DNA of 64,000 nucleotides from Candidatus Persebacteraceae bacterium Df01 (GTDB lineage Bacteria; Pseudomonadota; Gammaproteobacteria; Tethybacterales; Persebacteraceae), in NCBI GenBank assembly GCA_030386295.1, contig JANQAO010000003.1:174114-238113 (forward strand). The letters are read 5' to 3'. A model generated the notes under the pieces. It saw only the letters and a list, made by a program, of their open reading frames with translations. It searched no databases and had not been told where the DNA came from. Made by a program: the position numbers and the translations under genes. Of the stretch, positions 8,441 through 29,531 are shown piece after piece. Each line of letters opens with the position of its first letter. The first letter of the stretch is position 1.

Positions 8441-8968
8441 ATGAACCACGAACACCACATCAACCAATTAGCTGAAGCGCACAACCAGAATATTATTGCG
8501 CTAGCCACCCTCGGCAGTAAAATAGAAGCCGCCGAAGCCAAAGTGCGAGAAGCAAAAAAAACAGACTTAGATAAATTGCTGCGAGCAGAAATAGAAACCC
8601 GAGTGGCACTATATAACGCTATTGTGGATAGTGATCCATCGCTGTGGCAATCCAAAAAAACACGGTCAGTCGGCGCAATTAAATATGGTCTACAAAAAGA
8701 ACGTACGACAATCAACATCCCCGACGAAATCGCAACCATAGCTAAGTTACGCGAGATTTACGGGATTGACGCCAAGCGTTTTATTAACATCATTGAAAAA
8801 ATAAAAAAGACAGCAGTGCATGATTTACCTGACGATGAAGCTAAGTCAGCAGGTATCAAAGTACAGCTTGGTGACGAAAATGCCATTTTCGTAAAAACGA
8901 CTATTACCCTCCCCAATGTTATCAAGCAAATAATGGCTGATGGCTGGACTGACAGCGAAAATGCCTGA
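8441..8968 (+). CDS. gam: Gam-like host-nuclease inhibitor
   Basis: This 175-residue protein matches Mu Gam (174) in length and layout: a long N-terminal helical hairpin (EAAEAKVREAKKTDLDKLL), the beta segment KKTRSVGAIKYGLQ, and a C-terminal part KVQLGDENAIFVKTTITLP. Mu Gam is a Ku-like dimer that coats DNA ends and blocks exonucleases. The ATG at 8441 has a good AGGAG six bases before it. It overlaps the next gene by eight bases. Confidence 0.9.
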   Translation: MNHEHHINQLAEAHNQNIIALATLGSKIEAAEAKVREAKKTDLDKLLRAEIETRVALYNAIVDSDPSLWQSKKTRSVGAIKYGLQKERTTINIPDEIATIAKLREIYGIDAKRFINIIEKIKKTAVHDLPDDEAKSAGIKVQLGDENAIFVKTTITLPNVIKQIMADGWTDSENA

Positions 8969-9281
8969 TATTAAAGATAATATATTCTTGCGTGTGTTGA
9001 CCGACCATCTGTCGCCGCAGCAGGCATATGATGTATCTATCTACGTAGGCAAACAGATGGGCGGTGCGCGGTTCTGGGTATCGAGTCAAGGAGCATCGCA
9101 ATGCCCCACGGCGCAAAGGTTCATTAGAACACTACGGCGCGGGCTAATCCAGAACGGAATCCCACCCAAACTAACAGACCAGATAATTGCATCAATCAAT
9201 GCAGTGACCCCCATGATATATGTGCCGACTAGCGGGCTAGGCCCCGTTACGAACAGCACAGCTGGGCAGAGAGCAATATAA
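8961..9281 (+). CDS. Hypothetical protein in the Mor (middle regulator) position
   Basis: This is a 106-residue protein from ATG 8961. The pattern LSPQQAYDVSIYVGKQMGGA, then TAQRFIRTLRRGLIQNGIPP, recalls the Mor/C family, which has a conserved GG before a C-terminal helix-turn-helix, but the match is weak. It is the last gene of the early run and is followed by a 250-base gap with regulatory signals, just where Mu places Mor and C. I infer a possible transcription activator and would not insist on it. Confidence 0.45.
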   Translation: MPDIKDNIFLRVLTDHLSPQQAYDVSIYVGKQMGGARFWVSSQGASQCPTAQRFIRTLRRGLIQNGIPPKLTDQIIASINAVTPMIYVPTSGLGPVTNSTAGQRAI

Positions 9282-9532
9282 TATTGTGTACAACGACACC
9301 CAAGTATTTCCTTCCTGCAGCGAGAATTGTAGATATTCTTTTGACTTATTATTGATTTTTTAATAAAAAAAGAGAGAGAAAATGAAAATAGAAATTTTAT
9401 TGGGTGATATAAATATCTAATTTCTACTGCAATAAATTATGCAAAGTAATGGCATCTATCAGCTAATGATGCCGCGCCGTTACGACTAAGCTACGTAGCC
9501 GATTTCCGTAAAAAAAACACCATAATGGAAGC
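9282..9532 (+). promoter_or_regulatory. Early/late junction with promoter candidates
   Basis: There is no convincing gene in these 251 bases. TTGACT (9341-9346), a 17-base spacer and TAAAAA (9364-9369) form a weak sigma70-like promoter followed by A-rich DNA. A 12-codon frame at 9382 has a purine-rich leader but no other support. The last 42 bases before ATG 9533 carry the shared element described separately. Confidence 0.4.
9491..9532 (+). promoter_or_regulatory. Shared late-operon 5' element, copy 1
   Basis: CTACGTAGC begins exactly 42 bases before the ATG at 9533. The same nonamer, with an internal 8-base palindrome, begins exactly 42 bases before the ATG at 15653. Without gaps, 28 of the 42 bases agree, including CCG and A-rich blocks. 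It is probably a late promoter/operator plus 5' leader. Confidence 0.6.
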
Positions 9533-9943
9533 ATGAGATTTCCACAATTTACCGACTATGAGGCAAGCGAATGGATCGCGCGCCGACTAAAAGAAGAAAA
9601 AATAAATTCTGCAACCAAGCTGGATAGTGGCGATATCGCCGACTGGTCTACTAGCCAACATGTCGGTGAGGTCAGCTCAGCCACGTCAATGAAGCGAGTG
9701 TTGGGTGATGTTCGGATAGAAGCGATCGAGAATGACCGCATGCCGAATATTACCTTTTATCGCGGTGAAGGAGAGACAGAAGCCCAAGTGATAGCCGCAG
9801 CCAAACTAGCGGAAAAAGACTTAGCAATGGGGCGAGTGAGTGGAGGCTTTCCGTTCGTGATGGTGATTGTTGGATCGCACGAAGAGGGCTGTCGGCTGGC
9901 TACTGTTGCCGATGCTGAATCATTCACAGAGAGCGGAAAATGA
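9533..9943 (+). CDS. Hypothetical protein, first gene of late block 1
   Basis: This 136-residue acidic, mostly soluble-looking protein has a helical N-terminus (ASEWIARRLKEEKIN) and a helix in the second half (AQVIAAAKLAEKDLAMGR) before a hydrophobic strand (FPFVMVIVG). I recognise no family. Its stop overlaps the lipoprotein start (ATGA). As first gene after the shared 42-base element it should be made early in the late phase. Confidence 0.5.
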   Translation: MRFPQFTDYEASEWIARRLKEEKINSATKLDSGDIADWSTSQHVGEVSSATSMKRVLGDVRIEAIENDRMPNITFYRGEGETEAQVIAAAKLAEKDLAMGRVSGGFPFVMVIVGSHEEGCRLATVADAESFTESGK

Positions 9944-10257
9944 CAAAACTAACGTGTATGATGGGATTAACAATATTACTGAGTGGTTGCGCTATCACGC
10001 ATGATGGTGATGCGCTGAGTATTCCCGCTGATGTGCAAACCAATGCCGAAGCGCGTGCTGATTATTGCGCTAACCGCGCGCAATTCAAAAACCAAATGAC
10101 AATATTAGAAGCGCTTGCTAATGGTGTCGCTATACCAGCATCAGCAGTAGGCGTACCGGTTGGTGCGTTATTAGGCGTGGTTGGCAGCAGCAAGGTAGCA
10201 CTCAAGCCAGCGACCGAAGCCGCCGATACACTGTGCGCTGATGAATGGGCGGGGTAA
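9940..10257 (+). CDS. Predicted phage lipoprotein
   Basis: This 105-residue protein begins with a lipoprotein signal (LTCMMGLTILLSGC), giving a lipobox LSGC with Cys at residue 17. Three further Cys follow, and there is a hydrophobic, Gly/Ala/Val-rich segment (GVAIPASAVGVPVGALLGVV). It should be anchored in an envelope membrane. Lysis (spanin-type) or surface exclusion roles are possible. It overlaps genes on both sides. Confidence 0.6.
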   Translation: MTKLTCMMGLTILLSGCAITHDGDALSIPADVQTNAEARADYCANRAQFKNQMTILEALANGVAIPASAVGVPVGALLGVVGSSKVALKPATEAADTLCADEWAG

Positions 10258-10820
10258 TGGATGCGGCTATGCAATACGCATTCCCGGAGCATCCGCTCGT
10301 AATATCCATTAATCATGCCTCGCAAGATAAGGCATACATTAATCTGTATCCGTTTAATATTGTAATACCTGACATCGGCAAGATAACGCTGCCGGGGTTA
10401 TTCATCTCTGACGGGATGTCAATCCCTGATTTCGCCCAAATGAGCATTCAAGGGGAGGATGGAATAGTGGCAGGGCATATTCATGATATGTTGTATTCAC
10501 ATGGGTTTCCCGCGCGGCTGGCAGCAGAGTACCCTAATGCACCGACATGGACGCGCGAGCAAGCGGACCAAGCACTACTGGATTACATAAATCAACACTG
10601 CCCGGGAATCAGTAAAATTGAGTCGTGGATAGCGCAGCGTGCCGTGCAGATATTCGGCGAGAGATATTTCCAAGCACAAAAAAACGACATATGGCGTCGG
10701 CGAATAGCAGATAACCTCGGCGGCATATCGGGCAATGGTTGCGGCGTGGAGTACCCGCAACCATTGCCCGGAGATGTGTACAAAATCAGATACGGCAATA
10801 GATATAGAGGGCAAGGGTAA
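10257..10820 (+). CDS. DUF1353-like phage protein
   Basis: The start is ATG 10257, overlapping the previous TAA (TAATG); ATG 10245 is an alternative. The 187-residue protein has the DUF1353 signatures LPGLFISDGMSIP and GHIHDMLYSHG (family: SDG-S-P, then HD-LY). The molecular role of DUF1353 is unknown; it is common near phage lysis and tail genes. Near its 3' end the DNA contains a perfect 16-base inverted repeat that encodes NGCGVEYPQPLPG. Confidence 0.7.
   Translation: MDAAMQYAFPEHPLVISINHASQDKAYINLYPFNIVIPDIGKITLPGLFISDGMSIPDFAQMSIQGEDGIVAGHIHDMLYSHGFPARLAAEYPNAPTWTREQADQALLDYINQHCPGISKIESWIAQRAVQIFGERYFQAQKNDIWRRRIADNLGGISGNGCGVEYPQPLPGDVYKIRYGNRYRGQG
10729..10770. repeat. Perfect 16-base inverted repeat inside DUF1353 gene
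   Basis: CGGGCAATGGTTGCGG (10729-10744) and its exact complement CCGCAACCATTGCCCG (10755-10770) flank a 10-base loop. There is no T-tract after it, and it lies 50 bases before the stop codon. Confidence 0.9.
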
Positions 10821-11074
10821 TGGTCGAATGGACCGAAGCCGTAATAACTATATTAGTTGCCGTTGGTGCGGCAATTATTACGGTGGCAAAATTCATTTCA
10901 GGTGCCAAGCGGGCGGAGAGGTCTGCAATACGTGCGCACGAGCGCATTGACGAAATGGCTGAAAAAATTACCGAAACGCAAAAAGAAACACGCGAAGAAA
11001 TCAAAGCAAGCTTCACGCGTGTGCATAATCGGCTTGACCGCATGATGGAGCACATCAGCAATATTAAACAGTGA
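10820..11074 (+). CDS. Small membrane-anchored coiled-coil protein (Mu gp25-like)
   Basis: This 84-residue protein has one N-terminal span (AVITILVAVGAAIITVAKFI) followed by a charged coiled coil (EKITETQKETREEIK). Length, topology and position directly before the gp27-like protein resemble DUF2730 proteins of Mu-like phages (gp25 region). Function is unknown; a holin or spanin partner is an alternative. It is coupled to the gene before by TAATG. Confidence 0.6.
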   Translation: MVEWTEAVITILVAVGAAIITVAKFISGAKRAERSAIRAHERIDEMAEKITETQKETREEIKASFTRVHNRLDRMMEHISNIKQ

Positions 11075-11075
11075 C

Positions 11076-11597
11076 ATGGCCAAAGGTAGCATAGTAAGAA
11101 AAAAATTACCTGCTCATGTTCGCGAAGAACTTGAGAAACAGCTAGTTAAGCATGGATTCGCCGATTATACGGAGCTTGTTGAATGGCTTAAAAAAACACA
11201 CGGCTATACGATTAGTCGTGCTGCGCTCCACCGATTCGGACAGAAACTAGAAGAACGCATTAAAAAAATATCGGACATAACCGAAATAGCTAAGGCGCTA
11301 GGGCGTGCCTCTAACGATAACGAAGAAGAGTTAACCATAGCGACCAGCAGGTTAATATCCGCAGAGCTGTTTAATAATCTAATTAAAAATAAAGAATTAT
11401 CCACAGCCGAATTAAAAGAAGCCGCCCAAAGCATATCTGTTCTACTCCGCAGCAAGGTTGGGCTGCTAGATTACCAACGAAAAGTACAAAACAATATAAC
11501 CTCGGCACAAAACCAAGCAGAAAAACTTGTATCATCGGCGGGACTATCACCGGACAAGATAAAATTGTTGCGCGGCATAATTGCCGGTATTACTTGA
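11076..11597 (+). CDS. Mu gp27-like protein (DUF3486), likely small terminase
   Basis: This 173-residue protein begins IVRKKLPAHVREELEKQL and continues DYTELVEWLKKTHGYTISRA, the HTH-like opening of DUF3486. A helical body with an oligomer-like segment follows (LKEAAQSISVLLRSK). In Mu, gp27 lies before the large terminase and is taken to be the small, DNA-recognising subunit. Its stop overlaps the terminase ATG (TGATG), in line with joint production. Confidence 0.8.
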   Translation: MAKGSIVRKKLPAHVREELEKQLVKHGFADYTELVEWLKKTHGYTISRAALHRFGQKLEERIKKISDITEIAKALGRASNDNEEELTIATSRLISAELFNNLIKNKELSTAELKEAAQSISVLLRSKVGLLDYQRKVQNNITSAQNQAEKLVSSAGLSPDKIKLLRGIIAGIT

Positions 11598-13135
11598 TGG
11601 CTTTTTCCGCTCCCGCATACGAGCGCAGCTCTCCCATATCAGATATTCCGCTGCTGGCATATCAGCGCGTATATGAAGCACTTAAAAAAAAGAATCAAAT
11701 AATAGTATGGCTTAAGAGTCGGCGAATTGGCGCATCATGGGCTGATGCCGGGCTGGCAACGCTCAACATTGCCGCAGCGGGGACGGGCCATCATTACTAC
11801 CAAGCATATAACAAGGATATGACGCGCCAGTACATATCCGACGCAAAAAATTGGGCAAAAAAATTCCAAATCGCAATGGGCGATATTCAGATCAACGATG
11901 CCGACAAAGATAATCTGACGTTTGAGGTTCGGTGCGCAAGCGGTCGCCGCATCGAAGCACTCTCAGCTAATCCGGCAGCATTTCGGTCAAAAGGTGCCCC
12001 CGGGGATTCGTTCACTGTTGACGAATGTCGTGATATTGCTGGCTTTATCGACATACTAGAAGCTATAACGCCAGTCATCATATGGGGCTCGCATATATCA
12101 TTCATGTCATCAGCTGCGCGTGTGACACATCCATTTACAGAAGTCATTGCCGACATTCAGAGTGGAAAGAGAAAAGGATGGGCGCTACTCAAGACGACAT
12201 TCCTCGATGCAATGAAGGATGGGCTGTACCGCCGCATCTGCCAAATAAACAAAAAAAATTGGGCTGTGAAAGAAGAAGAAGGTTTTTATTATCGTGTTAT
12301 TGGCGAAGTAGAAAATCCAGCACAAGAGTTATTTTGTATCCCCGGAGAATCCAGTGGAGCATGGATGACGACAGCACTCATCGAAGCGCGGACTGATGCA
12401 GCACTACCGTTGTTACGCTGGGCAACGCCGGATGGCGTCTCTCCAACCGAGTTTACCTTTTGGCCGGAGCGCGCTCGCGAAGCAGAAATAAACCAGTTTT
12501 TTGTTTCGGTTGTGATGCCGGCACTGGTATCAGTGGGGCGCGAACAGCGGGGCTTTTTGGGTTGGGACTTTGGCCGCAGTGGCGACAAGTCCAGCATTGC
12601 GGTAATGTTTCTTATGCCGACTATGTTGCGGCGAGCGATTATTATTGAGTTGGCGGGGTGTCCATTTCGCCAGCAGGAGCAGCTGGGCAATCTCATGATT
12701 GAGTGGCTGGTTGATAATGGCGGCTTCGGTAGTGCGCAATGTGATGCGCGCGGCATTGGTAATCCTACATCAGAAGCACTACAACAGAAATGGGGTGAGA
12801 ACGCAATTGTCGCCAACCAAACAAGCGCGCGATGGTACGACAACAACATGCCACCGCTCAAACAAGCATTCGAGGATGGCGCGATTGCGATACCGCGGCA
12901 GGTAGACATAATCAACGATTTACGGTCGGTTGAGGTGATCAACGGAACACCCAAACCGCCGGACGGCCGAATAAAAGGCACGGACGGCATCCAGCGGCAC
13001 TGTGACTCGGCTGTTGCGCTGGCACTGGCTTATGCCGCAACGCGAAACGATGCCGGTGCATTGGAGTGGGAAGAGGTAATCCCGCACGACCCATTCCGTG
13101 AACAAATAATTGCCTATGGCAAGGGAGACGTATGA
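11597..13135 (+). CDS. Terminase large subunit, Mu gp28-like
   Basis: This 512-residue protein starts at ATG 11597. The ATPase domain has the deviant gp28-type P-loop KSRRIGASW (40-48) and a DE pair (FTVDECRDI). The C-terminal RNase H-like nuclease begins with FLGWDFGRSGDKSS (Asp324) and continues with QCDARGIGNP and HCDSAVALALA. It packages DNA by the headful mechanism and, in Mu, cuts outside the prophage ends. It overlaps the portal gene by four bases. Confidence 0.92.
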   Translation: MAFSAPAYERSSPISDIPLLAYQRVYEALKKKNQIIVWLKSRRIGASWADAGLATLNIAAAGTGHHYYQAYNKDMTRQYISDAKNWAKKFQIAMGDIQINDADKDNLTFEVRCASGRRIEALSANPAAFRSKGAPGDSFTVDECRDIAGFIDILEAITPVIIWGSHISFMSSAARVTHPFTEVIADIQSGKRKGWALLKTTFLDAMKDGLYRRICQINKKNWAVKEEEGFYYRVIGEVENPAQELFCIPGESSGAWMTTALIEARTDAALPLLRWATPDGVSPTEFTFWPERAREAEINQFFVSVVMPALVSVGREQRGFLGWDFGRSGDKSSIAVMFLMPTMLRRAIIIELAGCPFRQQEQLGNLMIEWLVDNGGFGSAQCDARGIGNPTSEALQQKWGENAIVANQTSARWYDNNMPPLKQAFEDGAIAIPRQVDIINDLRSVEVINGTPKPPDGRIKGTDGIQRHCDSAVALALAYAATRNDAGALEWEEVIPHDPFREQIIAYGKGDV

Positions 13136-14700
13136 TTAATTGGCTGATTAAGAATTTACCGGCGGGGCGCAGCAGCGAGGAATTAGTGCTGCCACAACCC
13201 ATGCCTAAAAAAGAAAATTTAACCGACGAACAAGCAACCATCAATAGCGACCCGTATTACGCACCGACGGCTGGAGTCATTGATATTGACGAACACGATG
13301 ACATTATTAAAAATCAATCTCCAACACAAAAGTTGAAAATATATCGTAAGTGTGAGCAAGATATACGCATAGCTAGTATGCTGGATATCCGCAAGCGAGG
13401 ATTACTCACCAATGGCTGGAGCGTAGTGCCAGGAGGAGATGCTCCGGCGGATATACGTGCCGCCAAATTGTGTGATAAATGGCTAGCTGGGATTGATGCC
13501 GAGACGCTATTTAACAACATGCTGGACAGCACGCTATATGGGTTGAGCGTGATTGAATTAATCTGGGCAACAGACGGAGGTCACTGGCTCCCGCGAGAAG
13601 CGCGTAGTAAGCCGCCATGGCGATTTGTTTTTGATACGCAATTTCGGTTGCGTGTGTTGACGTGGGCGGATACCTATTACGGTGACCCTACCCTCCCCGC
13701 TAAATTTTTGGTGACCGTCCGCGAACGCTCAAATGACAATCCATACGGCAAAGGGCTGGGTATCCGACTGTACTGGGCGCAGCTATTTCGCCGTTATTGT
13801 ATGCAGTTTTGGGCGCGGTATGGAGATAGGTTTGGTACGCCGTATGTCGTAGGAACGTACCCGGGCACAGCCAAGCAAAGCGAGCGAACATTATTCAGGC
13901 GGATGTTGGCTTCGTTGCGCCGAGACACGGCGTTAATGAAACAAGAAGGATTCCAAGTTGAATTTGCCAATGCGGGTAGCGGCGGGTCCGCCCAAACAGA
14001 TTTTTATAAAAACTGGAAAATGGCAATAGATGAAGATATTGCGGTGTGCGTGCTCGGCAATACACTAACCACAACGATGTCAGGGTCGTCTGGGTCACGT
14101 GCCGCCGGCGAAGTTCATGAGAGGGTGAGCCAAGCTGCCATGACTGAAGACGCGCACAGAATACAGACTGCACTACGCCGTCAGGCATTTAAGTGGATTA
14201 CACATTACAACATTGATGACAATGCCAAGGTGCCGATGCTGCACTTTGACATGCCGGCGTTGGGCGCGCAAATCCAACGGGCAGAACGCGATGCGATGTT
14301 ACTGGCGCAGGGCGTACGCCCCGCCAATCCAGAACAATACTACCGTGAGAGATTCGGGGTTCAGATTGACGGCAATTTCTATCATAAGAATTCCGATGAG
14401 ATGCCGACCACGCCAGAGCTAACGGCTAACTTTGCGGCAGAGGAATTAAACAATCGCCGCAACCAAGCAATAAAAATAATAAACGATATAGATGAGACGG
14501 CGACCGGCCATGCTGCTGAAGCATGGAAAGAATTACAGGCGTTTGCGCTCGAGCAGCTTGACGCCGCGCAAAATGCAGAAGAACTGGAAGCCATTATTGA
14601 TGCAGTTGCCAGTGCAGCAGGTAACACGCCGATGAGTGAGAAGCTAGAAGCGTTGATGGTGTCGGGGATGGCGGCAGGCGAGGTAGGCAAGGTAGATTGA
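13132..14700 (+). CDS. Portal protein, Mu gp29-like (DUF935)
   Basis: This 522-residue protein has the expected family length. Landmarks are KLKIYRKCEQDIRIASMLDI, RKRGLLTNGWSV, LDSTLYGLSVIELIW, the YGKGLGIRLYW segment and LGNTLTT near residue 310, all typical of the DUF935 portal family of Mu-like phages. The portal forms the ring through which DNA enters and to which the neck binds. AAGGGAG precedes the ATG, and the TGA overlaps the next ATG. Confidence 0.92.
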   Translation: MINWLIKNLPAGRSSEELVLPQPMPKKENLTDEQATINSDPYYAPTAGVIDIDEHDDIIKNQSPTQKLKIYRKCEQDIRIASMLDIRKRGLLTNGWSVVPGGDAPADIRAAKLCDKWLAGIDAETLFNNMLDSTLYGLSVIELIWATDGGHWLPREARSKPPWRFVFDTQFRLRVLTWADTYYGDPTLPAKFLVTVRERSNDNPYGKGLGIRLYWAQLFRRYCMQFWARYGDRFGTPYVVGTYPGTAKQSERTLFRRMLASLRRDTALMKQEGFQVEFANAGSGGSAQTDFYKNWKMAIDEDIAVCVLGNTLTTTMSGSSGSRAAGEVHERVSQAAMTEDAHRIQTALRRQAFKWITHYNIDDNAKVPMLHFDMPALGAQIQRAERDAMLLAQGVRPANPEQYYRERFGVQIDGNFYHKNSDEMPTTPELTANFAAEELNNRRNQAIKIINDIDETATGHAAEAWKELQAFALEQLDAAQNAEELEAIIDAVASAAGNTPMSEKLEALMVSGMAAGEVGKVD

Positions 14701-15044
14701 TGGACATAGTCCTCCCCACTGCTGCGTTGAGATATTTACGCGCGCGGGGGGTCAGTATTAACAGCGGTGAATTTAAGCGGAGGTATGGTCAGTTGCGCGA
14801 CGTAGCATTTACTGTTGCACAGGTATCAAAAATCAGCACACTAACCAAACTGAATGATAGTCTGATTGATGCCGCCGCCAAAGGCCAAGGATTTAATGAA
14901 TGGCGAGCCGGAATTCAGGTACAAGTAGCCGCCAGCAAGATACCCGCCATCATAAAAAAGCCCCCCACCAATATAAAAGATAAAAAATATCAGTGGGCAG
15001 AGTATATGGACACTCACAGCTGGGCAGGCTGCGATGGAACCTAA
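14700..15044 (+). CDS. MuF/gp30-like head morphogenesis protein, truncated
   Basis: Only 114 residues are encoded, against roughly 400 in Mu gp30. The N-terminal helical region is recognisable (FKRRYGQLRDVAFTVAQVSK and LNDSLIDAAAKGQGFNEW). After about residue 75 the sequence departs from the family and ends at a TAA directly abutting the gpG ATG. MuF proteins sit in the head near the portal. Loss of the C-terminal three quarters could disable virion assembly, unless the phage has a natural short form. Confidence 0.65.
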   Translation: MDIVLPTAALRYLRARGVSINSGEFKRRYGQLRDVAFTVAQVSKISTLTKLNDSLIDAAAKGQGFNEWRAGIQVQVAASKIPAIIKKPPTNIKDKKYQWAEYMDTHSWAGCDGT

Positions 15045-15500
15045 ATGACAATTAAGATAGACGATCGCGCGATTAAGAGCTATATCCGCGGGCTGAAAAA
15101 TATAATAACCGCCGACATGCTTGATACTATCGGACGCACAGTGCAGACGCGTGTCGTGCGAACATTTCTCAATGAGACCGATCCATACGGGCAGCGTTGG
15201 CAACCGCTCAAGCGGCCGCGGCGAAGACAAGGGCGAGCCAGCAGGACTGATAAGGTGCTGAGTGATACCGACACTCTGCGGCGTAGTATTAACTACGTCA
15301 TTAATGTCGCGCAGAAGAATGTTCGAATTGGTGCGGGTATGACCTATGTGCGACACCAGCATGGCACGCTGAGACGTAATCTCGTCGCTCGTCGCTTCAT
15401 GCCGATAATCAACAATACAGCAGCATTACCGGCTTCTTGGCAGCGGGCAATACAACAAGCAGCCGAGCGGTCATTAAAAAATAAAGTAATACCAAAATAA
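15045..15500 (+). CDS. Virion morphogenesis protein, Mu gpG-like
   Basis: This 151-residue protein matches the gpG/phage virion morphogenesis family: an N-terminal helix (IRGLKNIITADMLDTIGRTV), FLNETDPYGQRWQPL (family: DP-G--W--L), VLSDTDTLRRSI, and GAGMTYVRHQHGT. It probably acts in neck or tail completion. It ends late block 1; the next gene lies 152 bases on, after a regulatory gap. Confidence 0.85.
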   Translation: MTIKIDDRAIKSYIRGLKNIITADMLDTIGRTVQTRVVRTFLNETDPYGQRWQPLKRPRRRQGRASRTDKVLSDTDTLRRSINYVINVAQKNVRIGAGMTYVRHQHGTLRRNLVARRFMPIINNTAALPASWQRAIQQAAERSLKNKVIPK

Positions 15501-15610
15501 AACCACCAACAAAACCGTTGCAAGTGCGTTGCATTTTGCGCGCACCGCGATAAAAATCACTTTACGGGCGGTCGCGCTATCCACCACCCAAAAACACGAA
15601 ATAGACACCA

Positions 15611-15652
15611 CTACGTAGCGGAAAGCCGGTAAAGAAAAGGCAAAATACAACC
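15611..15652 (+). promoter_or_regulatory. Shared late-operon 5' element, copy 2
   Basis: CTACGTAGC starts 42 bases before ATG 15653, exactly as at 9491 before ATG 9533, with 28 of 42 positions identical. AAAAGG at 15635-15640 may serve as ribosome site. The 110 bases before it hold no gene; TTGCA is repeated near 15518 and 15530. Confidence 0.6.
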
Positions 15653-16624
15653 ATGGACGAATTGATATTTAGGAAAGAAATAATGCGCACCGGCACATTC
15701 AGTGATAGCGCTGGAGTAACGCATACATTTAATTCTGATTATCTGGATCAGATTCAAGCATCATACAACCCTGACGATCCAGCACCCGTTGTATTAGGGC
15801 ACCCAACAAACAATGATGCGCCCGCATTTGGCTGGGTGACGAAACTCAGTCGCACGGGCGATAGATTAGTAGCTACGATACGCGCGAATAGCGCTGAATT
15901 CATGGATTGGGTTCGTAATGGCCGCTACCCCAAGGTAAGCGTTAGCTTGCATCAGCGCGATAGCACATCTAATCCCACCCCGGGCAAACCTAACTTAAGA
16001 CACCTAGGCTTTTTGGGTGGAGCAAGTCCGGCAATACCCGGACTTGCTCCAGCTAACTTAAATGCTGAAGATGATTATATTACCGTCGATTTGACAGATA
16101 CAGAGACACCAATAAACACAGTGGTTGCCGATCAGTTCGCAGATCAGTTAGCCGTGATTAACGAGCGCAAAGCCGAGCTAGATTCTCAAGCGGCAGCACA
16201 GGCTGCACGCGAAGTCGAATTTGCGGCAAAACAAAACGAACTAGATGAGCGCGATACCGCCATTCGGGAAGCTGCGCGCAAAGAAGTCGTACATAAATGG
16301 ATCACAGAAGGCAAGCTGCCGCCCGCATTTGCAGACAAGGCACAAAAAATATATGCAGCCTTGCAAGAGCCGCAATCAGCTGACTTCTGCGAAGGATTAG
16401 CGGCAGACAATTTCGTTGCATTGATGGACGGGATGTCGAAGACAGGATTATTTTCGGTGCTGGAAGATACCCCCCCAGCACCACGGATGAGTGCTGACAC
16501 TGCCGGCAAACTCATAGCTAATTATGCAGCAGAAAACAACCTATCACTAAGCGAGGCGCAGCAGCAACTCGCATCAGAAAGAAAAATACCAGGAAAAATA
16601 CCAGGAGACATGACACATGAGTAA
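15653..16624 (+). CDS. Phage protease/scaffold protein, Mu gpI-like
   Basis: This 323-residue protein has an N-terminal protease region of the type EIMRTGTFSDSAGVTHTF, then SYNPDDPAPVVLGHP and DAPAFGWVTKL, found in capsid maturation proteases of transposable siphophages. Residues about 165-215 are a long coiled coil (QAAREVEFAAKQNELDERD), typical of the fused scaffold part. It shapes and matures the prohead. It overlaps the cement gene by eight bases. A perfect 14-base inverted repeat lies within it at 16018-16051. Confidence 0.85.
   Translation: MDELIFRKEIMRTGTFSDSAGVTHTFNSDYLDQIQASYNPDDPAPVVLGHPTNNDAPAFGWVTKLSRTGDRLVATIRANSAEFMDWVRNGRYPKVSVSLHQRDSTSNPTPGKPNLRHLGFLGGASPAIPGLAPANLNAEDDYITVDLTDTETPINTVVADQFADQLAVINERKAELDSQAAAQAAREVEFAAKQNELDERDTAIREAARKEVVHKWITEGKLPPAFADKAQKIYAALQEPQSADFCEGLAADNFVALMDGMSKTGLFSVLEDTPPAPRMSADTAGKLIANYAAENNLSLSEAQQQLASERKIPGKIPGDMTHE
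16018..16051. repeat. Perfect 14-base inverted repeat inside protease gene
   Basis: TGGAGCAAGTCCGG (16018-16031) is exactly complemented by CCGGACTTGCTCCA (16038-16051) with the 6-base loop CAATAC. No T-run follows on the coding strand. It falls at the change from protease domain to linker. Confidence 0.9.
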
Positions 16625-16970
16625 TCAAATATTAACCACATCACTAGAGGCGGCAGCGGACCTACCGGGTTGCTGCATTGTGCGGCCGACCGCCGACGGC
16701 ATTGTAAATCTAGCGACAGCCGGCAGTCATCTAAGCATCGGAATTACAGATAAGCGTGGTGGCAATAGCGGCGAACAAGTCGGCGTTATAGTCAGCGGCA
16801 TCGCGGAAGTAGAGGCATCAGCAACTATCGTACGCGGTGCGGCAATCACAGCGGCAGCCGACGGCAAGGGCGCGACAGCAGCCAGCGGTAATCGCGCTAT
16901 TGGTGTCGCACTGGAATCAGCATCAGCGGGCGAGACCGTGCGCGTGCTAATCGGCATACACACCGCTTAA
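16617..16970 (+). CDS. Capsid cement/decoration protein (DUF2190-like)
   Basis: This 117-residue protein is Gly/Ala/Val rich, with the small beta-barrel rhythm of capsid decoration proteins: LTTSLEAAADLPGCCIVRPT, SIGITDKRGGNSGEQVGVIV, RAIGVALESASAGETVRVLI. It lies between protease and major capsid protein, the usual place. It probably stabilises the expanded shell. A strong AAGGAGG follows its stop and serves the capsid gene. Confidence 0.78.
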   Translation: MSNQILTTSLEAAADLPGCCIVRPTADGIVNLATAGSHLSIGITDKRGGNSGEQVGVIVSGIAEVEASATIVRGAAITAAADGKGATAASGNRAIGVALESASAGETVRVLIGIHTA

Positions 16971-16982
16971 GGAGGATAAAAA

Positions 16983-17933
16983 ATGACAACACAAGCACAC
17001 CAACAGGATAATAGATTATCTCAATTAGCGATTGCGTATAGCAATATGCCCAATTCATTCATTGCCGAACAAGTGGCAATGAGAACGCCGGCAAACAAAT
17101 ACGGTCAATACCAAAAGTTTAGTGATGGTTCGTTTTTTCAGGCGGTCGAAACTAGGATGGCCTATGGTGCTCGCGCCCAAGAAATAGTGACGGCATCATC
17201 GCTAGAGGCGTTCTCATTAGATAGCCATGGAGTTGACGCGTTCATAGACCGCGCAGAAAATCGCCATGTCAGCGCGGATAGAGAGAGAATGAATCTCCTA
17301 GAAGACGCCGCGCTACAATCGGTACTCGCAACGATGAGGATCAACCACGAAGTAGAAGTTCGTGATGTCGTATTCGACACCACGAACTATGCATCAGCGT
17401 TGCAGTTCGCACTAGCCGGCGGTGATCAATTCGATAATGACGCGTCTGATCCAATTAAGACCATCACCAACGCAATTAAAGAGGCCATCGCCCGACCTAA
17501 TGTTGCAGTGTGCGGTATGAATGTAGCGCACGCGCTACGATCAAACCCTAATATTAATAAGGCAGTACACCGGACAAATGGAGATGCCGGCTACCAATCA
17601 CTGGATTCGATAGCCATGGTGTTGGGCCTAGATAAGATTATTGTCGGCGAAGCATGGGCAGCGACCAGCGATAATACAGCACCAACAAGCAGAATATGGG
17701 ACAGTGCTGATACGCTCGCATTGGTTCGCGTGGGCGTGCCGACTGATTTGCGTTGTGCCAATGCTGCGGCTTTCGCGGTGACGGCGACAGAACACGGCGG
17801 GATGATCGTGCGCAAGTGGAACGAAGATAATCGCGGACCAGAAGGTGGTACTGTTATCCGGCCGGTTGACTGTCGGAAGGTGATCCACCTAAGCGAGATT
17901 TCTGGTGCGATCATAACTAACTGTCTGACTTAA
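16983..17933 (+). CDS. Major capsid protein
   Basis: This 316-residue protein has the length and place expected of the major head subunit (Mu gpT/B3 type). It opens with RLSQLAIAYSNMPNSFIAEQ, has an E-loop-like segment (KFSDGSFFQAVETRMAYGAR), a long spine-helix region (RERMNLLEDAALQSVLATMR), and a C-terminal beta part (LALVRVGVPTDLRCANA). The very strong ribosome site AAGGAGG nine bases before ATG 16983 fits the most abundant virion protein. Confidence 0.85.
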   Translation: MTTQAHQQDNRLSQLAIAYSNMPNSFIAEQVAMRTPANKYGQYQKFSDGSFFQAVETRMAYGARAQEIVTASSLEAFSLDSHGVDAFIDRAENRHVSADRERMNLLEDAALQSVLATMRINHEVEVRDVVFDTTNYASALQFALAGGDQFDNDASDPIKTITNAIKEAIARPNVAVCGMNVAHALRSNPNINKAVHRTNGDAGYQSLDSIAMVLGLDKIIVGEAWAATSDNTAPTSRIWDSADTLALVRVGVPTDLRCANAAAFAVTATEHGGMIVRKWNEDNRGPEGGTVIRPVDCRKVIHLSEISGAIITNCLT

Positions 17934-17935
17934 TA

Positions 17936-18373
17936 GTGACGTATGCGTCGTTAGCCGATCTGACCGACCGGTATGGTGAGGCGGAGCTTATCCGCCTTAC
18001 CGACATTGAGGCCGTACGCAATAACGCCATCAATGAGACCGCAGTGACATCAGCGCTCACTGACGCATCCAACGAAATCAACGAATATGTAGGGCTGCGT
18101 AACCCAGCGCCACCAGCACTCATCACCATAGAATGCCGGATTGCTTATTATCTGCTCCAGCGGAATCTGCCGAATGAGGCAGCGCGGCTTGGGTACGAAG
18201 ACGCCATCCGTAGACTTAAAGACATTAGTGCGGGGCGGGCTGTATTGCCGCTGGCTGATGCCGAAGCAACAGCAGCAGAAACAGCAGCTGACAGCGAAGC
18301 AATTCCACTCGATGCGCGGAACGGTAGCGATAGCCTCGGCACATTCAACGATAGCGCAATGCGGGGATATTAA
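17936..18373 (+). CDS. Neck/head-completion protein, Mu gp36-like (DUF1320)
   Basis: This 145-residue protein starts at GTG 17936 (VTYASLADLTDRYGEAELIR), the conserved opening of DUF1320. It continues with ALTDASNEINEYVGLR and IAYYLLQRNLPNEAARLGYEDAIRRL. Structures of relatives place this fold at the head-tail connector. Two further stops follow the capsid TAA just before it. The stop overlaps the next ATG (TAATG). Confidence 0.85.
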   Translation: MTYASLADLTDRYGEAELIRLTDIEAVRNNAINETAVTSALTDASNEINEYVGLRNPAPPALITIECRIAYYLLQRNLPNEAARLGYEDAIRRLKDISAGRAVLPLADAEATAAETAADSEAIPLDARNGSDSLGTFNDSAMRGY

Positions 18374-18813
18374 TGGGAGCACTATCTATCATTCCGAGTA
18401 TTGCCGCAGTCGCCGCGCGATTACAAAGCCATGCCAGCACATCAGGCTATGATATTCGTGTTGGCATTGATCAGTTGTATGCTCCACTGCAAAAAGGCAT
18501 TGTGGTCATTAATGGCGAGACGAGTGCGGATGCACCAGCAACAATTGGTAACTATATTCAGACTGTACGCGTACAAGTTGCGTGTGTGATTATCGCGCCG
18601 AGCCACACCATACAAGGTGAAACTATAACCGAACTAGAGCGTGTGGCGGCTGATGTCCGTGAGGCACTGATTGGACACGTCCTAGATAACGCATTTACTG
18701 AGGTGATCTATGTTGGCGGCGGACGCCCGGAGACACCGATTGACAGCTTACCGTTTTCTATCACGCAAGAATTGTTTGGTTATACAGCCGAACTAAGGAG
18801 AATAAATGACTAA
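18373..18813 (+). CDS. Tail terminator/completion protein (Mu gp37-like)
   Basis: This 146-residue protein comes directly after the gp36-like gene. The layout (IIPSIAAVAARLQSHASTS, a strand-rich middle QTVRVQVACVII, a helix ELERVAADVREALIGHVL and a strand AFTEVIYVGGG) matches the alpha-beta fold of tail terminator proteins, including the gp37/DUF1834 family. It would cap the tail tube at the head-proximal end. The family call rests on pattern and order. Confidence 0.65.
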   Translation: MGALSIIPSIAAVAARLQSHASTSGYDIRVGIDQLYAPLQKGIVVINGETSADAPATIGNYIQTVRVQVACVIIAPSHTIQGETITELERVAADVREALIGHVLDNAFTEVIYVGGGRPETPIDSLPFSITQELFGYTAELRRIND

Positions 18814-19015
18814 CAAAAATAAAAAAATAAGACATTGGGCACAAACCAATATCTTTTGGGACGGAGCATTAATTAAAAAAGGCGAAGAAATCCCAGAAAA
18901 CAAAACCAAAAGCAAAGACTTTGAGCGACTGATAAAAGGCAAGAGTATCTGGTCGGATAAGGTGGCGGAAGAAAAAAAACCAGCAAGTAAACCTAGTATA
19001 GCTAGCGGAGTATAA
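18806..19015 (+). CDS. Small basic phage protein (Mu gp38 position)
   Basis: This is a 69-residue, Lys-rich protein. The N-terminal half (HWAQTNIFWDGALIKKGEEI) looks like a small beta hairpin, and the tail is low complexity (EEKKPASKPS). Mu-like phages often have a tiny gene here (gp38, DUF2635). No function is known. The ATG at 18806 lies inside the end of the terminator gene, and AAGGAG precedes it. Confidence 0.55.
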   Translation: MTNKNKKIRHWAQTNIFWDGALIKKGEEIPENKTKSKDFERLIKGKSIWSDKVAEEKKPASKPSIASGV

Positions 19016-19017
19016 CG

Positions 19018-19962
19018 ATGTTAAAATCCAACAATAGTATTATCCTCGCCAAGGTCGAGACGACATCAGGGACGGATGCTATCCCTACAGGCGCAGCGAA
19101 TGCAATACAAGTAAGCAATATAGAGCACACGCCCATTGCCAGTGATACGGTTGATTTGCCGCGGAATACGGGATACTTCGGGCACGGGCCGCAACTATTA
19201 ATTAATAAACGCGTGACTATTGCGTTTGACGTGGAGGTATCCGCAGCGGGTGCAGCCGATACGGTACCAGCATGGGCACCGTTATTGCGTGGGTGTTTGT
19301 TTAACGAGACCGTTACTGTCGGCACATCGGTGTCATGGTCGCCTATCACCAACAACGCCGAAACACTGACGATATATGTATATAGAGATGGCGTTGTGCA
19401 GAAGCTAGTCGGCTGTCAAGGAACATTTACGCTGACATTATCTGCGGGTGGTGCTCCATCATTCAGATACACATTCACTGGTTCTTATGCTGGGCCGAGT
19501 GACGAAGCCAATCCAACAGCAGCGCTATCGGCATTCCGTACGCCGCTTGCTGTTGATTTCACTAATGCAACATTAGCGATACACGGTTACGATGTTGTAT
19601 GTAATGAATTTAGTATTGACATAGCCAATGCGGTGACATCTACCGACATTATCGGCAGCAATGACATTGTTATTAGCGAGCGAGCGCCGGTGGGCTCGGC
19701 AACAATAGACTATACCACCGTAGCGGATAAGAATTGGATTGATATTGCACGAGCGGCGACTGGTGGACCACTGGCATTTGTTTTAGGTGAGTCGGACGGT
19801 TCGGGTGGGCGCACTGCCGGCACAATATTCAAAGTTGATTGCCCCAATATCAGCCTCGGCGCACCGACATTCGGTGACCGCGATGGTATCTTGACGGCAA
19901 CTATTCCGTTGCGGTTAGTGCCAGATGCCGGCAATGACGAAATCATAATCACAACACAATAA
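19018..19962 (+). CDS. Tail tube protein, siphovirus type
   Basis: This 314-residue beta-rich protein has LKSNNSIILAKVETTSGTDA at the start and repeated strands such as VTIAFDVEVSAAG and GTFTLTLSAGGAPSFRYTF, typical of tail tube subunits with an Ig-like extra domain in B3/D3112-like phages. The position before the frameshifted chaperone pair and tape measure supports it. With no sheath gene nearby, it argues for a flexible non-contractile tail. Confidence 0.78.
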   Translation: MLKSNNSIILAKVETTSGTDAIPTGAANAIQVSNIEHTPIASDTVDLPRNTGYFGHGPQLLINKRVTIAFDVEVSAAGAADTVPAWAPLLRGCLFNETVTVGTSVSWSPITNNAETLTIYVYRDGVVQKLVGCQGTFTLTLSAGGAPSFRYTFTGSYAGPSDEANPTAALSAFRTPLAVDFTNATLAIHGYDVVCNEFSIDIANAVTSTDIIGSNDIVISERAPVGSATIDYTTVADKNWIDIARAATGGPLAFVLGESDGSGGRTAGTIFKVDCPNISLGAPTFGDRDGILTATIPLRLVPDAGNDEIIITTQ

Positions 19963-20225
19963 TGACAATACGCACCTCAGCAACGGTAACACTAACAGGT
20001 TCATGGACAAACCTCGGTGCTGGTCCTATATTTGGGAACACCAACGGGCACAATAAGGGATTCCTAGAGCTTGGGTATAGCGACGGTTCTACGGCACCAA
20101 CAGTGGGGATTCCGGTGGGGGATGATTTTGCCGTCGTGTCATCACGCACAGAGAATACATGGCTGCGCACAACTACTGGGGCAAGTATTGAGTTTCGTTA
20201 CTATGCATATGAGAATACGCAGTAA
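19962..20225 (+). CDS. Small structural-looking phage protein
   Basis: This 87-residue beta-rich, Thr/Gly-rich protein begins TIRTSATVTLTGSWTNLGAG. It has no named family that I recognise. It is coupled by TAATG to the tail tube gene, and its own end overlaps the next start, so it is part of the tail transcription unit. It may be a tail decoration or tube-associated domain. Confidence 0.5.
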   Translation: MTIRTSATVTLTGSWTNLGAGPIFGNTNGHNKGFLELGYSDGSTAPTVGIPVGDDFAVVSSRTENTWLRTTTGASIEFRYYAYENTQ

Positions 20226-20829
20226 GCGATTTGATTATTGGGTGGGATATTATCCGCGTCACAATAACGTATGCCGTATTCACGTTGGTTTTGGCGGTGG
20301 TGGCAGTAGCGGCGGCAGCGGACAGACTGCCGAACAAGTAAACTCAGCTATTACGGAGGCCCTGGCGCAAATACCGCAGCCGATGTTGCCGAATGCCGTC
20401 TCTGCTTCGGGCCCAGCCAAGCGGGGCTTGGGCGGCACAGGCACGTCAGTATTTCTGACTTTTCCGCCAGATCAATCTACAAGCAGCGATGCTGCCATAA
20501 CTGGCACAGGCGATGAAGTAACCAATAACCCAGCAGGGGCTTACTCTATCAGGCTGAACGCTTTTCTCGATGAGCGCAACTCAAGCGGTAATCCAAGAAA
20601 AAATATTGAGACTAGACTATATAAAACCACCACACGCCTCTCTGAATATGATAGTCAATCGTGTTACCTTCGGGTAGTAGCTATTGATGGTCGCCTAGGC
20701 GCAAATTATCAAATAAATCTTGATGCTGGTGACACAATAAAATTTCAAGCCTATGTAATCCAGGCGCAAACATCAACCAATGTAAATCTTAAACAAAGGT
20801 ATTTACGGGTTGATAGATTTGCCTTGTGA
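20209..20829 (+). CDS. Virion-associated protein with Gly-rich linker (hypothetical)
   Basis: This is a 206-residue protein from ATG 20209 (ATG 20203 also possible). A short N-terminal part is followed by the linker GGGGSSGGSGQT, a helix (AEQVNSAITEALAQIPQP) and a beta-rich domain of about 140 residues (NAFLDERNSSG; VVAIDGRLGANYQINLDAGD). The linker and jelly-roll-like end suggest a surface fibre or decoration. No family is recognised. Base composition resembles its neighbours. Confidence 0.5.
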   Translation: MRIRSKRFDYWVGYYPRHNNVCRIHVGFGGGGSSGGSGQTAEQVNSAITEALAQIPQPMLPNAVSASGPAKRGLGGTGTSVFLTFPPDQSTSSDAAITGTGDEVTNNPAGAYSIRLNAFLDERNSSGNPRKNIETRLYKTTTRLSEYDSQSCYLRVVAIDGRLGANYQINLDAGDTIKFQAYVIQAQTSTNVNLKQRYLRVDRFAL

Positions 20830-20848
20830 TGAAAAAATTAAACGAATA

Positions 20849-21331
20849 ATGATAATAGAGCTAGTTAGGTTCTATACGGATGGTTCCTGCACCGCGGGGG
20901 CGCTATATTGTCAAGATAAGCAGCTGTGTTATGTGCTCGAAGACAGAATGCGCAATAAAAAAATAAATGATATTACTGCCATACCAATCGGGGAATATCC
21001 CATTACCCTACACACGGCGGGGGGATTTCATGAACGATATAAAAAAAAATATCCCGAACACAAAGGCATGTTGCTGCTCAACAACATCCCTAATTTTAAG
21101 TGGGTACTAATCCACATCGGCAACACAATAGATGATACCAGCGGCTGCCTACTCGTCGGCAATGAATTACGCCTAGGCGAAAAAACAAACTGTAGAGTAG
21201 TACACAGCACAGTGGCCTATCGTGCTATTTATCCTCATCTTGCCGCTGCGGCGGCTTCTGAAGAAGGGCTGACAATAAAAGTAATAAATGGCTGTCCATT
21301 TGATTTTGGCGGCATTCCGGCCGCCGCATAA
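20849..21331 (+). CDS. DUF5675-like protein
   Basis: This is a 160-residue protein from ATG 20849. IIELVRFYTDGSCTAGALYC, LCYVLEDRMRNKK, TAIPIGEYPITL and WVLIHIGNTIDDTSGCLLVG fit DUF5675, a family common in phages whose members keep a His in an H-GN context and a Cys near it. That active-site-like pair suggests an enzyme, possibly acting on cell wall. No other endolysin candidate is visible, so this could fill that role; that is inference. Confidence 0.65.
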   Translation: MIIELVRFYTDGSCTAGALYCQDKQLCYVLEDRMRNKKINDITAIPIGEYPITLHTAGGFHERYKKKYPEHKGMLLLNNIPNFKWVLIHIGNTIDDTSGCLLVGNELRLGEKTNCRVVHSTVAYRAIYPHLAAAAASEEGLTIKVINGCPFDFGGIPAAA

Positions 21332-21342
21332 CAGGAGCAAAA

Positions 21343-21747
21343 ATGATACTCATTCAAAAAGATTTACAGGTCAGTTGGCCGGTTACCGTAAGCGTTGCCG
21401 CTGATGGCGGTGTGGTGACTGAACACGTTACTACGATGATATTGCGCGCGCTAAATAAAAAATCCCGAAACAAAATGCACCAAACACTGGATGAATCACG
21501 AGCATTAACTATTCGCTCATCGGCACAAGCAAAACAAAAAATAGAGGACGTGCTAGACCAAATATGCGTGGATAATGTATTGGGGTGGGATGATGTGCAG
21601 GACGCAGATGGGAAAAAAATATCCTTCAGCGAAAAAAACTTACTGGCGGCTATGGATGCCATGCCGGCGCTACGTGATGCTATTGTTCAATCGCTGGCAG
21701 ACATAACGCTGGGAAAGCCCGCCGCCAGCACCTCAGACAATATATAG
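21343..21747 (+). CDS. Tail assembly chaperone (lambda gpG analogue)
   Basis: This 134-residue protein has AGGAG before ATG 21343. It lies directly upstream of the tape measure with a second short gene between, the standard place of the tail assembly chaperone. A heptamer G GGA AAG at 21711-21717, in the correct reading phase, allows a -1 slip into the frame of the next gene. The normal product ends LGKPAASTSDNI. Such proteins bind the tape measure while the tube assembles and are absent from the virion. Confidence 0.75.
   Translation: MILIQKDLQVSWPVTVSVAADGGVVTEHVTTMILRALNKKSRNKMHQTLDESRALTIRSSAQAKQKIEDVLDQICVDNVLGWDDVQDADGKKISFSEKNLLAAMDAMPALRDAIVQSLADITLGKPAASTSDNI
21711..21717 (+). promoter_or_regulatory. 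Programmed -1 frameshift site GGGAAAG
   Basis: The zero frame reads CTG GGA AAG CCC, so the heptamer has the X XXY YYZ form. The -1 frame is open into the next gene. The same heptamer is used by lambda G/GT. The stop of the upstream frame is 28 bases further on. Confidence 0.75.
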
Positions 21748-22109
21748 AGTGGGCAGATGGCGAGATGAAAGCCAAAAGCGAAAACGGCAAGAAAAATCTC
21801 GCCGCCGCCGCCGCCGCATTTGGCTTAGCGATGGCAGCAGAACCTCCCCCACAAAAATCATTCAAGCTGTGGCGCGGCGTGGTGCGCAGTGTATCGATAT
21901 TTAATCAACTGCCCGATTCGGTGTGGCGGCATTACTTCCCGCCGATGGGCGGTAACGTGCTATTGCTGGGGCTTGATTGGGCGGCGGTTGCGGCGTTGTT
22001 GTCGTTGCGTTGTCCGCGCATTGCGGGGACAAAAATGACAACACTATTAGATGACCTGACAGCAATGGAAGCGGTGACCGTCAGCATCCGCAACAGAGTA
22101 AGAAAATGA
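21717..22109 (+). CDS. Frameshift extension of tail chaperone (lambda T analogue)
   Basis: Reading in the -1 frame from the slip at GGGAAAG continues ARRQHLRQYIEWADGEMK and on to 22109 without a stop, adding about 130 residues. A free start at ATG 21765 exists but has no ribosome site (GCAGATGGCGAG precedes it), so the fusion is the likelier product. The extension has an Ala-rich stretch (NLAAAAAAFGLAMAA) and a hydrophobic C-terminal half. It would bind the tail tube, as the T domain does in lambda. Confidence 0.72.
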   Translation, partial: ARRQHLRQYIEWADGEMKAKSENGKKNLAAAAAAFGLAMAAEPPPQKSFKLWRGVVRSVSIFNQLPDSVWRHYFPPMGGNVLLLGLDWAAVAALLSLRCPRIAGTKMTTLLDDLTAMEAVTVSIRNRVRK

Positions 22110-25054: not shown

Positions 25055-25527
25055 TGCGCGAGATATCACTAGCATCTACTGCCGCATGGAATCGGATGGA
25101 CGTATCCGACCCGCCATTATTGTTGGTCACGCTGAGTGCGCCTGATTATCAGTATGGAGATCCTATAAGATATGTGCCGGATGTACTCAGCATTGACTCG
25201 AACGGTAATACGTATTCTGCTTTTGCGCTGCAAATTGGACTACCTACTGATGCAGCGGTGCCACGAGCAACGCTCACACTAGGCAACGTCGATAAACAGA
25301 TTATGCCGAACATAATGGATGGATCATTGCGCGGTGCAGTAATTAAGCTGGAGGTCATCCGGCGCAGCGAACCCGATGTTGTAGAAGCGGAGATTGATTT
25401 GATTGCCGATAGCATACGCGCAGAAGATGACCGGATTGTCTGTAGGCTGGTGAATGGAGCTGAATTGGGTGCGGCGGCCGTCCGCATTAACTACAATAAT
25501 AATACAGCTCCAGGACTCTTCGAATGA
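25054..25527 (+). CDS. Minor tail protein, DUF1833 family
   Basis: This 157-residue protein has DPPLLLVTLSAPDYQYGDPI, FALQIGLPTDAAVPRATLTL and GNVDKQIMPNIMDGS, the landmarks of DUF1833 (family: lP-d---a-l-idNVd). It is the counterpart of lambda L/M-type proteins that link the tape measure to the tip. It is coupled at both ends (TAATG before, ATGA after) in the tail-tip gene set. Confidence 0.8.
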   Translation: MREISLASTAAWNRMDVSDPPLLLVTLSAPDYQYGDPIRYVPDVLSIDSNGNTYSAFALQIGLPTDAAVPRATLTLGNVDKQIMPNIMDGSLRGAVIKLEVIRRSEPDVVEAEIDLIADSIRAEDDRIVCRLVNGAELGAAAVRINYNNNTAPGLFE

Positions 25528-26435
25528 AGTGGGCAAATAAATATCTAAGACGACGGCCACTAAGCTGTGCGCATCTAGTGGCGGACGTATTGCGGGAGGA
25601 ATGGGGTGTGGACATCCCCCTACCGACACCGCACGGTACTGAAGCACAACGGCTATTTAAAGTGCATTTTCCTTGTGCCACGGAAGAGTGTATTAATCCG
25701 ACCGACGGCGACATTGTTGTATTCGCTCGAGGACGAGCGAAGCACATTGGTATCGTAGTCATGCGGGGCGGGGTGCCCTATGTATTACACGGTGGCGGCG
25801 GCGGACAATTTGTGACGGCGGTGGAGTCGGTGTCGCGAGTGGCACAGCGAATGCGCCTCGAAGGGTATCGGCGATTAGTGCGCGATCCAGCAGGAGCGCT
25901 AAAAGATAATGGACTGGTAGCAGCAGAACCCACATCTATTTTTCTTGTTTTTGCCGCTGCGGCGGCGGTATCGGTGGGAGCAACACTACTCGCTGGGTTA
26001 TTCTCGCCTAGTGTATCGGAGTTTAATTCAGAGTCAGAAACGACAGCCAGCAACACCTACAGCCTGTCCGGCGGCAGCAACAAGATACGTGCTTACGAAC
26101 CGCTACCGCTGATATTCGGGAGGGTGCGAGTGTATGCTGATTATGCTGCTATGCCGTATGTGTACTATGATAAAGATGGCGAGCAGCATATCGCCGCCAT
26201 CTATAACTTCGGATATGGCGATTTACGCGGCGTAAAATATCAACTTGGTGATACGGACATTACTGAGATACAGAGCTTAGTTATTGATAATATTAGTGGG
26301 ACACTAGTAGCAGATGAAGACAGAGGAGATTTAGGTGGGAGTTATTTTATTAGAACCAGAGAATTGTTGGGTATTAGAGGTGAGGCTACCGGAAGAAAAT
26401 TAAGGCACTCTATAGCAGATCGTGGGGGGAGGTAA
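25524..26435 (+). CDS. NlpC/P60 peptidase fused to J-like N-terminal part
   Basis: This is a 303-residue protein. Residues about 1-120 are an NlpC/P60 domain with Cys in RPLSCAHLVADVLREEWG and His in AKHIGIVV, so it can cut peptidoglycan stem peptides. Residues about 138-158 are hydrophobic (SIFLVFAAAAAVSVGATLLA), as in lambda I-type proteins. The rest (LPLIFGRVRVYADY; AIYNFGYGDLRGVKYQLGDT) looks like the start of a J-type tip protein. The frame stops at a G6 tract, and the next gene continues with the remainder of J. Confidence 0.78.
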   Translation: MKWANKYLRRRPLSCAHLVADVLREEWGVDIPLPTPHGTEAQRLFKVHFPCATEECINPTDGDIVVFARGRAKHIGIVVMRGGVPYVLHGGGGGQFVTAVESVSRVAQRMRLEGYRRLVRDPAGALKDNGLVAAEPTSIFLVFAAAAAVSVGATLLAGLFSPSVSEFNSESETTASNTYSLSGGSNKIRAYEPLPLIFGRVRVYADYAAMPYVYYDKDGEQHIAAIYNFGYGDLRGVKYQLGDTDITEIQSLVIDNISGTLVADEDRGDLGGSYFIRTRELLGIRGEATGRKLRHSIADRGGR

Positions 26436-26436
26436 A

Positions 26437-29148: not shown

Positions 29149-29456
29149 ACCGCGCACAAAACAACCGCATTGGATATTCAATCCGTTTTCGGCGATAGCT
29201 CGAAACACGCGCAATCCGGTGACAGGGTCATTACGCGACAACACAATAATTTCCACCCGTTTTTCCCCGTGGTTATTCATTGCCAGTAGTTTTTTTGCTA
29301 GCAAAAAGCCACGCCTGGCTTGGCTACGCGCTCTAATCGATCCAGTTGTGTTTGAACATAGGCTTCTTCGCCGTGCAATTTGAAAATTTCATTTTCCTCT
29401 TCAAAATCAAACAAGGCGCGTGATGATACGGCAACGGTTAACAGTGGCATTGTCAT
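29149..29456 (-). pseudogene. 5'-nucleotidase (PF06189 type), cut by the prophage and frameshifted
   Basis: Reading leftward from ATG 29456 gives LLTVAVSSRALFDFEEENEI, matching the conserved start of cytosolic 5'-nucleotidases (VAVSSRALFDLEEEN). One T missing from a T tract at 29303-29307 breaks the frame. The other frame resumes LAKKLLAMNN, VEIIVLSRNDPVTGLRVFRA and NGLNIQCGCFVRG (family: EVILLSRNSPDTGLRV). Similarity ends exactly at 29149, where phage DNA begins. The enzyme dephosphorylates nucleoside monophosphates; here it must be dead. The C-terminal two thirds should lie left of the window. Confidence 0.85.
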
Positions 29457-29531
29457 GTACGCATTATAAATGCCAGCTCCGCTTCACTTTTTAGGCGATC
29501 TTTGTGACCGAATTTATAAGTGCTTTTATAC

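Follow-up and report, generated by a model that had tools for sequence, protein, structure and literature searches.

Our analysis indicates that two 42-bp blocks, each running up to the first start codon of a late operon, are probably matched, activator-dependent late promoters of a Mu-like prophage, equivalent to Plys and PI of phage Mu and giving leaderless starts. The parts of this reading differ in strength. That the blocks form a late-promoter pair is highly likely, a leaderless start at both ATGs is quite probable, and binding of the shared box by a phage activator is somewhat probable.

Results

The prophage and its late operons

The window, i.e. the whole 64,000-nucleotide stretch of DNA analyzed, contains most of a Mu-like (transposable) prophage of roughly 30 kb. 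One prophage end, TGTTAACCACCAGAATTAATGAG, lies at contig position 173181, which is 933 bases before the window, and its inverted match lies at window position 29148. The genes and operons are listed below by window position.

4350: transposase
6310: MuB
7850: endonuclease
8441: Gam
8940-9281, + strand: last early gene, after Gam and where Mor usually lies; candidate for the late activator on the grounds of its position alone
9533-15500, + strand: late operon 1, with ORF 9533-9943, genes at 9940, 10245 and 10820, a gp27-like gene (11076), terminase large subunit (11594), portal (13132), a gene at 14697 and a tail-completion/G-like gene (15045-15500)
15653-29012, + strand: late operon 2, with the head maturation protease (15653-16624), a gene at 16617, major capsid (16983), tail tube (19018), tape measure (22106) and tail genes up to 28215-29012

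The late genes after ORF 8940-9281 all run in one direction, and just two sizeable gaps precede operons in this region, 9282-9532 and 15501-15652. Each of these gaps holds one copy of the box described below; therefore, the pair heads all of the late genes, 9533-15500 and 15653-29012. The proposal in the preliminary description that a shared signal splits the late genes into two units is supported by the positional analogy with Plys and PI of Mu and by the twin gaps of other phages.

The prophage ends are of the Mu-like type TGTT...TACA, ~30.1 kb apart. In place of a simple 5-bp target duplication, the two sides carry copies of a 718-bp stretch of host DNA in direct orientation, with 99.6% identity (contig C3:172463-173180 and 203263-203979, the right copy being window 29150-29866). 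The repeat covers the 3' portion of a leucyl aminopeptidase gene and some of the gene next to it. It would be explained if two prophage copies, integrated on sister chromosomes at sites 718 bp apart, had recombined. The same genome has a second Mu-like element of a different kind, outside the window at ~32000-50000 of contig C3 (L035-L036); it carries a transposase (37% identity), MuB, Gam, GemA and a Mu/D3112-type portal, and lacks a protease of the type found in the window prophage. The first gap also contains, upstream of the putative late promoter, a 12-codon ORF at 9381-9419 (MKIEILLGDINI) with a purine-rich run before its ATG.

Two matched blocks anchored to start codons

The predicted promoter parts are as follows.

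9490-9499, + strand: box 1, GCTACGTAGC, a perfect palindrome of 10 bp; predicted to be where the activator of late promoter 1, the counterpart of Plys, binds; centred at -38.5 from the predicted start
9521-9526, + strand: -10-like hexamer CATAAT, ending 6 nt before ATG 9533; predicted transcript start 9533 (within 1-2 nt)
15611-15619, + strand: box 2, CTACGTAGC; predicted to be where the activator of late promoter 2, the counterpart of PI, binds
15641-15646, + strand: -10-like hexamer CAAAAT, a weak -10 match, ending 6 nt before ATG 15653; predicted transcript start 15653

The sequence CTACGTAGC starts exactly 42 bases 5' of both ATG 9533 and ATG 15653, and the two 42-mers share 28 of 42 positions without gaps. 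The preliminary description had called them an identical 5' element; its coordinates and its count of 28/42 were right, whereas exact identity is limited to the first 9 bases. The core CTACGTAG occurs three times in the window (0.41 expected), the third copy being at 9041 within ORF 8940-9281, and an additional genomic copy sits within a host gene. Across contig C3 and 60 kb of contig C2, only these two sites carry the exact box 42 nt before an ATG; the one further exact match is the palindrome at 9490-9499 read on the opposite strand, 43 nt upstream of a fortuitous ATG.

In shuffled sequences the corresponding score had a mean of 14.2 (sd 2.8), placing 28/42 at p ~5e-5, and the 33 bases outside the 9-mer reached p ~0.003 on their own. 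The edges of the similarity are sharp: the 42 bases 5' of the box agree at 8/42 positions and the 42 bases after the ATG at 13/42, both at the chance level of the shuffles. We also compared the sequences upstream of all 1,029 ATG-started ORFs of the 456-kb contig, anchored at the start codon (~529,000 pairs). Apart from six pairs that are true duplications, 28/42 was the top score; the runner-up pairs scored 27 and 26, and both are AT-rich. Plain local alignment of the two gaps gave no significance by itself, so the strength of the match comes from the equal distance to the start codon. The box match, the sharp limits and the anchoring to the ATG together indicate that a real element extends from the box to the start codon.

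No Shine-Dalgarno sequence was found at the usual distance before either ATG. This is weak evidence when taken alone, since many genes of this phage lack one. Neither gap was found to contain promoter-like sites or a sigma70 hexamer pair, and no consensus -35 element is present. A -10 hexamer ending 6 nt before each ATG, together with the missing Shine-Dalgarno sequence, leads us to predict that the transcript begins at the ATG. We also looked for a 16-bp dyad of two half-sites; no convincing one is present in both gaps. A hint of a Mor-type dyad centred at -44 (TTACG-N9-CGTAG) was seen in gap 1 only, and was not adopted since gap 2 has no counterpart.

Twin elements in other transposable phages

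Hand-listed gaps were compared in 11 other transposable phages. In 10 of them, the pre-protease gap shares sequence with a late-operon gap, each phage having a sequence of its own. The best or tied-best pair was formed by a gap near the start of the late region and the pre-protease gap in Mu, B3, RcapMu, RcWaterboi, RR1-B, YPCBV-1, D3112 and phiSHP3. For MuM16-1 and AFS-2018a, the strong partner of the pre-protease gap lies deeper in the late region. No shared gap element was seen in KP12, the remaining phage of the 11. A wider, automatic survey covered 77 loci and detected twins in about half; several of the other loci did not extend far enough to include both gaps. The twins are mostly 7-8.5 kb apart and mostly inverted repeats, e.g. 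ACCGGACATAGGTCCGG.

In several transposable phages of Alphaproteobacteria, L086, L148, L152, L158, L058, L085 and L094, the twin inverted repeat is followed by a T run (CCGGAACCGAGTTCCGGTCATTTTCTTTTT; CCCCCGGACCTGTGTCCGGGGGTTTTGC). A terminator role is therefore possible in these alphaproteobacterial phages, where the twin element may be an activator site and the terminator of the upstream operon at once. Phage B3 (L056) has three copies of the ATTTTCG-N7-CGAAAAGC type, in the gaps before the holin, protease and tape measure genes, suggesting that it has three late promoters.

Close relatives of the window phage were not found among the phages searched by DNA, among viral contigs searched with the protease and activator proteins or the full promoter pattern, or in the genomes of relatives; a portal search returned relatives at 24-36% only. 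The preliminary description had proposed a search for the element in related phages. The places of the twin elements are kept there but the sequence is not, and no close relative was found in which to follow it.

Promoter geometry

Inverted repeats from 54 sequences, which are partly non-independent since they include some near-identical alphaproteobacterial phages, were aligned at the dyad centre. An A at +33 from the centre is conserved in 67% of them and corresponds to the -11 A of the -10 box, which places the dyad near -43.5. The start codons of these relatives fall into two classes by distance from the dyad centre. In class 1, which holds most of them, the start codon lies 58-74 nt from the centre, mostly with a Shine-Dalgarno sequence. 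In class 2, it lies 43-46 nt from the centre, there is no Shine-Dalgarno sequence, and the -10 box ends 6-7 nt before the ATG. The members of class 2 are listed below.

L040: protease promoter
L041: protease and late-operon promoters
L042: protease and late-operon promoters
L043: protease promoter
B3: protease promoter
TJ1: protease promoter
L104: protease and late-operon promoters

L039 has a different box, and at both of its promoters the end of the -10 lies 5-7 nt upstream of the ATG; with it, class 2 comprises 12 promoters in 8 phages. We predict that these promoters yield leaderless mRNAs. The window pair fits this class: both sites lack a Shine-Dalgarno sequence at the usual distance, and their -10-like hexamers end 6 nt from the ATG. 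Its box departs from those of the relatives, being a compact, contiguous palindrome centred at -38.5 as against -43.5, about half a helical turn off.

The host itself shows the same arrangement. Among 169 gap-preceded host genes, with the first ATG of each ORF taken as the start codon, 15 have a near-consensus -10 hexamer 6-7 nt before the ATG (~3.4 expected). The leaderless geometry is thus seen in ~9% of these genes, beside a normal Shine-Dalgarno peak. In the literature that we searched, leaderless late mRNAs were not described for any Mu-like phage, which does not prove their absence.

The candidate activator

ORF 8940-9281 gave no significant match to Mor/C in Pfam, PHROGs, our own Mor HMM, HHalign, a PDB sequence search or Foldseek (HMM E ~0.1; HHalign probability <1%). 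Its best Smith-Waterman score was reached by 30% of shuffles, no HTH could be recognized, and its AF2 model is of low confidence (pLDDT 57). The only hint is a short GGxRxW..Q likeness (GGARFWVSSQ / GGTRVWIPEQ) between this ORF and the Mor protein of L039, and shuffles match as well 30% of the time. The activator could be a diverged ORF 8940-9281 or another regulator; we propose only tentatively that this ORF product in particular binds the box.

Discussion

In the mechanism that we favor, a dimer of the phage activator would bind the palindrome CTACGTAG(C), immediately 5' of the place where a -35 element is missing, and host sigma70 RNA polymerase would use the -10 box CATAAT or CAAAAT. Transcription would start at the A of the ATG, giving a leaderless mRNA for the first gene of each late operon. 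Activator binding to the palindrome is preferred because a self-complementary site of 8-10 bp without a loop has the character of a DNA dimer site and not of an RNA hairpin, and because the box directly precedes the position of the absent -35. The equal spacing to the ATG would then be explained by promoter geometry and not by a shared ribosome-binding site.

The same spacing and the A-rich blocks would also suit a common 5' leader, in which transcription begins upstream of CTACGTAGC and the 42 bases form an untranslated leader that assists translation. A-rich leaders are able to work without a Shine-Dalgarno sequence. We regard this explanation as unlikely, because neither gap has promoter-like sites, nothing is shared upstream of the box although a common promoter should be, and both sites lack a Shine-Dalgarno sequence at the usual distance and have the -10 hexamer at the leaderless position. 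Moreover, the shared element in the Mu-like relatives is a promoter, not a leader. The preliminary description had proposed a shared promoter, leader and ribosome site; the late-promoter signal is retained by analogy with Mu Plys/PI and the twin gaps, while the leader and ribosome site are not, given that both ATGs lack a Shine-Dalgarno sequence and have a -10-like hexamer ending 6 nt upstream.

The start codons themselves bear on another explanation, that the promoters are leadered with normal Mor geometry and the starts mis-called. Transcripts would then run from ~9538 and ~15658, 43.5 nt after the box centre, and the protease would start at ATG 15683. This ATG has a good Shine-Dalgarno sequence (TAGGAAAGAAATAATG) and is 72 nt from the start of the box, as is usual for relatives with a leader, and TACAAC occupies the matching -10 place in gap 2. 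However, gap 1 has TGGAAG, which is no -10, at that place, the first 52 codons of ORF 9533-9943 offer no usable alternative start, and the N-termini of homologous proteases align upstream of 15683 (upstream of residue 11), favoring 15653. Both ATGs thus look like true starts, and we consider mis-called starts improbable. A likeness due to chance or base composition, or a site for a factor with no part in late transcription (a repressor or a host factor), would accord with the shortness of CTACGTAG, its third copy inside a gene and the non-significant local alignment. This is very improbable given the shuffle result, the top rank among the ~529,000 anchored pairs, and a position exactly where transposable phages carry twin elements.

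The paired late promoters that we favor can be compared with known systems. The C-dependent late promoters of Mu include Plys and PI, which have a common 10-bp match (PMC4461284); we recovered this match from the Mu sequence. Plys and PI resemble the window pair in their places on the gene map, at the beginning of the late region and directly before the head maturation protease gene, in a short common sequence and a -10 without a recognizable -35. In contrast, the box is different, the window centre is at ~-38.5, and the window start is predicted to be leaderless whereas Mu has a short leader. Furthermore, no equivalent of PP or Pmom was found in the window phage, and its activator is not recognizable as C/Mor. 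At Pm of Mu, a 16-bp Mor element centred at -43.5 replaces the -35 and the -10 is kept (PMC4390567), an arrangement like that predicted for the window promoters. The Mor element has two 5-bp arms and a 6-bp spacer, while the window box is a contiguous 8-10 bp palindrome in a different phase. Pseudomonas phage B3, Curvibacter phage TJ1 and the prophages or contigs L039-L043 and L104 are alike in having a pre-protease -10 that ends 5-7 nt before the ATG and no Shine-Dalgarno sequence; their boxes are unrelated, and their dyad centre is mostly 43-46 nt before the ATG.

This study extends the logic of the Mu late promoters to distant transposable phages by position alone. It also provides a rule: comparing the gap at the start of the late operon with the gap before the protease reads off the late-activator site of a phage. 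There may be a subclass of transposable phages with leaderless late operons, to which the window phage would add a compact palindromic box and an activator outside the detectable Mor/C family, although we advance this with reserve. If the leaderless reading is true, the mRNAs from which a class of Mu-like phages translates its virion genes have no leader.
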